Origin: Myxococcales bacterium
GTDB lineage: Bacteria; Myxococcota; Myxococcia; Myxococcales; Anaeromyxobacteraceae
Assembly: GCA_021806645.1 (NCBI GenBank)
Contig: JAJZQX010000014.1
Coordinates: 1-64,000 of the forward strand
Length of the DNA stretch: 64,000 nt
Reading direction: 5' to 3'
Shown here: positions 47,980 through 49,657 of the stretch, in pieces
Numbering within the stretch: the stretch's first letter is position 1
Layout of the letters: each line of letters begins with the position of its first letter
The notes under the pieces: model-generated
Seen by the model: the letters and a program-made list of their open reading frames with translations, nothing else
Told to the model about the DNA's origin: nothing
Databases searched by the model: none
Translations under genes and position numbers: made by a program

Positions 47980-49434
47980 CTAGCCGTTCTCTTCCTCGGC
48001 GAGCAGGCGGGCCACCCGCGCCGGCTCGACGCGGAGGTGGAGCATCCGCTCCTGGCTGTAGGTCACCGCCCCTGGGGCCGCGCCGCGTCCCTTGCGGACG
48101 TACTTGGCCCGGGTGCAGGCCACCTCCACCTGCGGCTCGCCGCGGGCGTCGGAGAAGTGGGCGGCCAGGTGGGCCGCGTCCAGGACCGACTCCTGGTCCG
48201 CCTCCGGGCCGGCCAGCCGTATGACCACGTGCGCGCCGGGCTGCCCGCGGGCGTGGAGCCAGAGGTCGTTGCCGCGCGCCACCCGCCTCGTGAGCTGGTC
48301 GTTCTCCGCGGCGCCGCGCCCCACCAGCAGCGCCAGCCCGGCCAGCGAGCGGAAGGTCCGGTAGGGCGGCAGCGGCTCGTCACGGTGGCGGCGCGGCCTG
48401 GCCGCCGACCGCGGGCCGGCCGCCAGCCGCCTGGCCTCGCGCTCGACGGCCGGCAGCGCCTCCAGCGGCTCGACGTCGACCCGGGCCAGCAGCGCCTCCA
48501 CCGCCGCCAGCCGCGCCCGCACCTCGGCGGTGCGCGCCTCGACGCGCGCCGCGCTCTCGACGATCCGCTTGAAGCGCTTGTAGCAGCGCTCCATGTTCTG
48601 GCGCGGGGTGAGCGCCGGGTCGAGCGCGATGCGCACCTCGGCCGGCCCCGCCTCGGTCCACTCGGTCAGCGTCACCTGGCTGGCGCCTCGGGCCACGGCG
48701 TGGAGGTTGGCCTTGAGCAGGTCGCCGGTCCGCCGGTCCGCCTCGGCCGCGGGAACGCGGGCCGCCTCGCCGGCGAGCTTCTCCAGCGCCCGCCTCGACC
48801 GGGCCACCGAGGCGCGCAGCGGCTCCCGCAGGCGGCGGCGCGCCTCGGCGAGGGTCCGCTCCGCCTCGACCGCCGCGTAGCGCCGCTCGATGGCGAGGGA
48901 CCACGGGAAGGGGGCACCGGCCACCGGCTCGAGGCGCGAGGCCCGGCGCTCGCCGGCCGGTGACGGCGTCGGCGGGGTCCAGGGCTGGCCGGGGGCGAGC
49001 CGTCGCCCCGGGGAGACGGCGCGCGACGCCATGAAGCGGACCACGCCGCCGGCGTCTACGAGGAGGAGGTTGCCGTGGCGCCCGGTCAGCTCGGCCTTGA
49101 GCTCCTGCGGACCGGAGGCCCGCTCGAAGCGCAGCGTCACCACCCGGTCGCCGGCCTGCAGCGTGAGCGCCTCGAGCCGGGTCCCCTCCAGCGCCTGCCG
49201 GAGCGGCGCCTGCCAGGCGAAGGGGCTGTCGGGCTGCGGCGGGCGGGCGGCGACGACGTGCAGCCGTGTCACCTCCGGCTCGGCGCAGAGGAGGAGGAAC
49301 ACGTTTCCGCCGCGCCCGTGCAGCTCCAGCGTGAGGGCGTGCTCGGCGTGGACGCGCACGGCGTCCACGCGGGCGCCGCGGAGCGCCTGCAACTCCGCCA
49401 CCACCAGCTCCAGCTCGAGCGCCGTCAACGACAT
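47980..49434 (-). CDS. NFACT family protein (Rqc2/RqcH-like)
   Basis: 484 residues. NFACT-N domain ~1-160 ('L-E-L-E-L-V-V-A-E-L-Q', a 'G-R-H-G-N-L-L-L-V-D' segment), two coiled-coil arms ~185-320, and the NFACT-R domain ~360-465 with 'N-D-Q-L-T-R-R-V-A-R-G-N-D-L-W-L-H-A-R-G' and 'P-G-A-H-V-V-I-R'. The family binds stalled 50S subunits and adds C-terminal Ala tails; in bacteria it is RqcH. No FbpA-type surface domain is seen. It starts 9 bases downstream of the terminator's T-run, so it does not continue the micro-gene transcript. Confidence 0.85.
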   Translation of the reverse strand: MSLTALELELVVAELQALRGARVDAVRVHAEHALTLELHGRGGNVFLLLCAEPEVTRLHVVAARPPQPDSPFAWQAPLRQALEGTRLEALTLQAGDRVVTLRFERASGPQELKAELTGRHGNLLLVDAGGVVRFMASRAVSPGRRLAPGQPWTPPTPSPAGERRASRLEPVAGAPFPWSLAIERRYAAVEAERTLAEARRRLREPLRASVARSRRALEKLAGEAARVPAAEADRRTGDLLKANLHAVARGASQVTLTEWTEAGPAEVRIALDPALTPRQNMERCYKRFKRIVESAARVEARTAEVRARLAAVEALLARVDVEPLEALPAVEREARRLAAGPRSAARPRRHRDEPLPPYRTFRSLAGLALLVGRGAAENDQLTRRVARGNDLWLHARGQPGAHVVIRLAGPEADQESVLDAAHLAAHFSDARGEPQVEVACTRAKYVRKGRGAAPGAVTYSQERMLHLRVEPARVARLLAEEENG

Positions 49435-49443
49435 GCGGCTCCC

Positions 49444-49473
49444 AAAAAGCTGCGGCCGCCCGAAGGCGGCCGC
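49444..49473 (-). terminator. intrinsic terminator with UUCG loop, after the lysine-rich micro-gene
   Basis: On the minus strand, GCGGCCGCC, loop TTCG and GGCGGCCGC form a perfect 9-base stem (49452-49473), followed by AGC and a T5 run (49444-49448). This is the clearest intrinsic terminator in the window. It separates the micro-gene from the NFACT gene. Confidence 0.85.
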
Positions 49474-49500
49474 GGCACCACTCTGCTGCTGAATCCGAAG

Positions 49501-49566
49501 TTACTTCTTCTTCTTGGCGGTCTTCTTCTTCGCAACCTTCTTCACGGCCTTCTTCTTGGCAGCCAT
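49501..49566 (-). CDS. 21-residue lysine-rich micropeptide
   Basis: The ORF has 12 lysines of 21 residues. After M-A-A it reads K3, A-V, K2, V-A, K3, T-A, K4. All lysines use AAG. A GGAGG (49572-49576) lies 5 bases before the ATG inside a longer GAGGAGGGA. The gene has its own promoter (49629-49657) and intrinsic terminator (49444-49473), so it is a single-gene unit of about 175 bases. It looks like the tail of a histone-H1-like protein, which suggests binding to DNA, RNA or anionic lipid. No such family is confirmed; it could alternatively be a small RNA that carries an ORF. Confidence 0.7.
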   Translation of the reverse strand: MAAKKKAVKKVAKKKTAKKKK

Positions 49567-49628
49567 AGTTCCCTCCTCGGAACGTCCATTCACTTCAAGA
49601 ACCACTCACGAATGGACAATGTGCCCGC

Positions 49629-49657
49629 ACGTTACAAAGCGGGATCGATCCCGTCAA
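49629..49657 (-). promoter_or_regulatory. promoter of the lysine-rich micro-gene, with palindromic spacer
   Basis: On the minus strand TTGACG (49652-49657) and TAACGT (49629-49634) are separated by exactly 17 bases. The spacer contains a perfect 14-base palindrome CGGGATCGATCCCG (49640-49653) that touches the -35 box, a good candidate operator. The -10 is a weak match (3 of 6), so strength is uncertain. The rest of the 49658-49775 gap holds nothing else recognisable. Confidence 0.55.

Follow-up and report, generated by a model that had tools for sequence, protein, structure and literature searches.

A very short lysine-rich gene preceding an RqcH-family gene across Myxococcia, with a putative histone-tail-like product

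A 21-codon lysine-rich open reading frame (ORF) in the stretch of Myxococcales DNA analyzed here (64,000 nucleotides, hereafter the window) is almost certainly a real gene. Lysine-rich ORFs of this kind precede a gene of the NFACT/RqcH family in most assessable genomes of the class, and the gene in the window is probably the shortest member of a family of histone-tail-like proteins predicted to bind nucleic acids. Its product would probably be a free polycationic tail, similar to histone H1 or Hc2, that binds DNA or RNA.

Organization of the transcription unit

In this work, we found the following features at the locus (coordinates are those of the window):

49652–49657, minus strand: −35-like box TTGACG; the family members read have TTGACG or TTGCNN here
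49640–49653, no strand assigned: perfect 14-bp palindrome CGGGATCGATCCCG, not conserved and probably a chance occurrence
49629–49634, minus strand: −10-like box TAACGT, 17 nt after the −35-like box
49584–49617, minus strand: hairpin of the 5′ leader with an 8-bp stem (GTCCATTC/GAATGGAC)
49571–49578, minus strand: strong ribosome binding site GAGGAGGG
49501–49566, minus strand: lysine-rich ORF of 21 codons, product MAAKKKAVKKVAKKKTAKKKK, with 12 lysines among 21 residues
49444–49473, minus strand: intrinsic terminator with a 9-bp all-GC stem (49473–49452), a UUCG loop, and a T5 run (49448–49444)
47980–49434, minus strand: gene for a 484-aa NFACT/RqcH-family protein, with read-through as its probable mode of transcription

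A preliminary description of this DNA had named the ORF, its ribosome site, the TTGACG-N17-TAACGT promoter, the palindrome, and the UUCG terminator with T5. Every one of these items is present, but the 8-bp hairpin of the 5′ leader and the downstream gene had been overlooked. The unit had also been called free-standing, which does not hold, since the NFACT/RqcH gene comes next in nearly all relatives.

The lysines of MAAKKKAVKKVAKKKTAKKKK are grouped as runs of three, two, three, and four, and the net charge is about +12 at 21 aa. The ORF is the only one in the window that starts with ATG, has at least 15 codons, and contains at least 40% lysine; 40 first-order Markov random copies of the window contained none. 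The terminator is similarly singular: no other perfect stem of 8 bp or more in the window leads into a T-run. A DNA search of the same genome returned further lysine-rich matches on contigs 27, 6, and 22. The contig 27 matches, rather than being further copies of the gene, form the tail of a longer protein (L002:1295-1558), whose lysine/alanine-rich C-terminus (AKKAVKKAAKQAGKKKPAKK...) resembles a PhaF-type tail.

The promoter boxes are less distinctive. The −10-like box matches TATAAT at only three of six positions and is weak, and a consensus scan reported no sigma-70 promoter at the unit. In relatives, the −10-like box is mostly TAACGT, TAACCT, TAATCT, or TAGTCT, at a spacing of 17–18 nt. 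Regulation through the promoter palindrome, as proposed in the preliminary description, found no support: the window contains 18 perfect 14-bp palindromes including CGGGATCGATCCCG, which is not beyond chance, and the corresponding position reads CGGGATCGATCTCA in the closest relative (G002), CGGGATCGATCCGG in G001, and CGGGATCGATCTCG in G003, such that the palindrome is lost even within the genus. We therefore rejected it as an operator.

The arms of the leader hairpin pair in all nine distinct sequences from two genera (the genus of the window and one other), in which they are nearly invariant, while the loop differs in length by up to about 17 nt. Covariation is almost nil, as seven of the eight pairs never vary. 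Such change in loop length would fit an RNA stem better than an operator of fixed spacing, and our guess is that the hairpin protects the 5′ end. Its sequence differs among genera, and outside these two the ribosome site has different candidate hairpins nearby; over 35 leaders, the folding z-score averaged −1.2. In addition, GAGGAGGG lies largely within the loop of a possible GTTCC/GGAAC hairpin (49583–49568) that is nearly invariant in two genera.

Conservation in the family and the class

The family of the window includes Anaeromyxobacter (A. oryzae, A. soli, and several metagenome bins). In all 20 assessable members, NFACT is preceded by an in-frame lysine-rich ORF of 21–42 aa that has an ATG start and a ribosome site, and promoter boxes and a terminator are likewise found at the locus. 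The length differences are all in frame, and no member combines a broken frame with a retained hairpin. The window and its closest relative have identical ORF DNA within a 301-nt region that is 89% identical. The codon-substitution analysis proposed in the preliminary description also favored a conserved frame: for pooled family pairs, pS was 0.38, pN 0.22, and pN/pS 0.57, or 0.84 when Lys–Lys columns were left out, all rough values because low-complexity sequences align uncertainly. The latter value indicates little constraint beyond the lysines. Selection would thus appear to act more on the lysines and the reading frame than on which spacer residues are used, in line with a low-complexity polycation.

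At the class level, a lysine-rich ORF of 21–99 aa was found within 790 nt upstream of NFACT in 96 of 121 assessable genomes, by a finder that selects on lysine content, so that the label "lysine-rich" partly reflects the method. The method does not account for how often an ORF with a start codon and a ribosome site recurs at the same place. By family, the ORF was found in 20/20 genomes of f1 (that of the window), 66/84 of f4 (the largest, Myxococcaceae-like), 7/7 of f7, 1/1 each of f2 and f8, 1/5 of f3, 0/2 of f6, and 0/1 of f10; the 790-nt scan detected none in the other 18 genomes of f4. The Myxococcus xanthus form has 79 aa, those of Corallococcus species 67–75 aa, and that of Archangium lansinium 66 aa. 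NFACT loci from Nitrospira, Planctomycetota, and other groups, about 50 in all, had no such ORF.

These patterns leave a practically negligible chance that the ORF is a random frame without function. Its great shortness and low complexity are what one would expect of such a frame, but the absence of similar ORFs from the random copies, and above all the conservation across 96 genomes, rule this out.

Three more genomes have the ORF outside the scan range, namely, G145 (just beyond it) and G091 and G093 (about 3 kb from NFACT). In the latter two, the small unit and NFACT are separated by a long ORF on the other strand, and the unit is complete, with promoter boxes, a ribosome site, the ORF, and the terminator all retained. 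In G040 (69% complete) and G031 (97% complete), for which we found no NFACT gene, similar lysine-rich ORFs of 26 and 27 aa stand alone with promoter-like boxes and GGAGGAG sites:

L031:1451-1531 and L281 from 784 (family f9): stand-alone 26-/27-aa lysine-rich ORFs in the two genomes that yielded no NFACT gene

Judged by likeness alone, these two may be orthologs of the ORF in the window. G095 has no lysine-rich ORF before NFACT; a 37-aa Arg/Lys-rich ORF, MPAKKGNRSKKSLKRRATAKRAVLKRRRLRSRKSKGR, with a ribosome site starts at 1511 on the minus strand of its locus L257. Matches to the class pattern in L255, L277, L280, and L282 were set aside as the lysine/alanine-rich N-terminal tails of a separate, longer protein family (about 100–110 aa) with the conserved motif NAAF.KP..P..ELA.VVG, which we presume to be reminiscent of SWIB-domain proteins.

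The neighboring NFACT/RqcH gene

The neighbor has domains NFACT_N (166 bits) and NFACT-R_1 (44 bits), both above the Pfam cut-offs, and aligns with Bacillus subtilis RqcH at both ends (E 7e-45) with an unaligned middle region; the NCBIfam RqcH models scored below their cut-offs. At 484 aa it is shorter than RqcH, the Rqc2 homolog (about 570 aa), but it shares the NFACT-N and NFACT-R domains and a D–R pair that aligns with D97/R98 of B. subtilis RqcH, which are needed for the selection of tRNA-Ala (PMC8373112). RqcH extends stalled chains on 50S subunits with alanine tails, an activity that is putative for the neighbor. Its N-terminal residues (M/V-S-L) are invariant across 14 aligned relatives. 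The ROK kinase gene upstream of the unit was found in the same place in just 3 of the 15 relatives tested, for which the loci extend no further than about 1.5 kb upstream; the small gene and NFACT remain neighbors, whereas the gene ahead of them varies.

The start of NFACT at 49434 is 9 nt after the T-run, which leaves no room for a promoter of its own between terminator and gene; NFACT is thus probably the second gene of the unit, at a low level. Under a loose search, a terminator-like hairpin with a T-run was found between the ORF and NFACT in 81 of 88 genomes, a count that takes in two doubtful-looking cases (G045 and G047), and in 65 the T-run ends within 27 nt of the NFACT start. This arrangement suggests that NFACT is expressed by read-through of the terminator, a known route to very different levels for two adjacent genes. 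Co-transcription of the two genes with NFACT at a low level therefore appears likely. A promoter for NFACT inside the small gene is possible.

Composition and likeness to known polycations

The 96 orthologs consist almost only of K, R, A, T, P, V, S, and G, with 27–57% lysine and at most one residue of F/W/Y/C/H/L/I/N/Q or internal M. They share with Hc2 (PF07382, chlamydial HctB) the character of a lysine/alanine-rich low-complexity chain without a folded domain. Hc2 also varies in length, through lysine-rich repeats, and the range of 165–237 aa given for it (PMC2848022) is 8–11 times the length of the 21-aa form. In a search with the PF07382 model, which lysine-rich low-complexity sequences match through composition alone, a 67-aa ortholog scored 20.2 bits and an 86-aa ortholog 31.9 bits (E 1.8e-7); none of the forms tested reached the cut-off of 40 bits, and the 21-aa form had no match to it and no significant one to any other family. 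We therefore did not assign the gene to Hc2. To our knowledge, Hc2 has no link to NFACT.

The C-terminal tails of AlgP and PhaF, with the KPAA repeats of Pseudomonas, are another likeness. They are disordered, Lys-Pro/Ala-rich polycations as is the product of the small gene, but they belong to larger proteins, whereas the small gene encodes nothing but the tail. Peptides of KPAA repeats bind DNA in vitro (PMC9239181). For a histone-H1-like lysine-rich protein of myxobacteria, nothing specific was found in the literature.

Codon choice is strongly biased. The lysine codons of the small ORFs comprise 1537 AAG and 4 AAA, vs. 490 AAG and 17 AAA in the NFACT genes of the same group (Fisher p about 1e-7, which is overstated because the sequences are related and some genomes occur twice in the NFACT set). 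Iterated AAA is described as cutting output more than iterated AAG in Escherichia coli (PMC4363877). The small gene thus looks built for efficient translation, which argues against a designed stall.

Proposed function and alternative explanations

We propose that the product is a short disordered polycation, in which lysine runs are separated by Ala/Val/Thr pairs and which would neutralize and bridge nucleic acids (DNA, or RNA including ribosomes) by loose binding without sequence specificity. The preliminary description had likewise considered a nucleic-acid-binding peptide, and this is a plausible product of the 21-codon ORF; binding to DNA in particular is what its charge alone would predict. 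The strong ribosome site, short transcript, hairpin leader, and strong terminator would allow synthesis at a high level, and leakage of the same promoter past the terminator would supply a low level of the NFACT/RqcH protein.

The layout also invites a regulatory reading. Amino-acid leader peptides of the trp and his type have a promoter, a short ORF rich in one residue, a terminator, and the downstream gene in this order. The order is the same here, with NFACT beginning just past the terminator in most relatives, but the downstream gene is not one of lysine biosynthesis. As a leader peptide or attenuator, translation of the ORF would govern the passage of the polymerase into NFACT. We consider this quite unlikely, and give no better chance to the variant in which the leader senses charged tRNA-Lys or the slow translation of a polybasic chain. 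No mutually exclusive antiterminator was found: the longest upstream complement to the 5′ arm of the terminator is 6–8 nt including G–U pairs, none of them convincing, and the predicted minimum-energy fold contains the terminator in 19 of 20 leaders. Orthologs reach 99 aa, and the preferred codon is the one that stalls less. Nor is the association with NFACT obligate, given the persistence of the unit in G091 and G093 and the similar units in G031 and G040. The lack of a visible antiterminator, together with units that lie away from NFACT or in genomes with no detectable NFACT gene, makes a pure leader role unlikely.

A closer tie to RqcH has somewhat more appeal, although it too seems rather unlikely. 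The small protein would then be a ribosome-associated basic peptide that binds the large subunit or tRNA, and its part in ribosome-associated quality control, as a helper or as a substrate, is given the same low chance. The RqcH relationship of the neighbor, with its aligned D–R pair, and the retention of the gene pair beside a changing upstream gene are consistent with this; the similar units of G031 and G040, for which no NFACT gene was detected, and Nitrospira NFACT relatives that lack the peptide, are not, and adjacency alone is no proof of joint function. That the peptide works with RqcH as a single functional unit throughout Myxococcia, with a polycation acting on ribosomes or nascent chains and its synthesis coupled to the RqcH level, is likewise unlikely in our judgment. 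We regard it as very improbable that the locus encodes a small RNA, either dual-function or purely regulatory, to which the ORF is only incidental. The short predicted transcript, the conserved 5′ hairpin, and the terminator would suit such an RNA, but the frame is kept in all family members, with synonymous change and in-frame length change, and the sequence of the leader hairpin differs between genera. The preliminary description had considered a dual-function RNA, and we found no separate RNA element: no Rfam family scored above threshold, and identity with Xoo2 (RF02241) was rejected at 27.9 bits vs. a gathering threshold of 45. The only other Xoo2 match among the relatives, in the best-scoring one (L066), is the end of an unrelated gene.

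Implications

With the free polycationic tail that we favor as its product, the gene would be a histone-tail-like one so short that annotation tends to pass over genes of its size, and it has relatives throughout the class. Its constant position ahead of an RqcH-family gene opens two questions to testing, namely, the role of free polycations in bacterial cells and the means by which the amount of a ribosome-rescue factor is controlled. Culturable Myxococcus and Anaeromyxobacter could serve as hosts for both.
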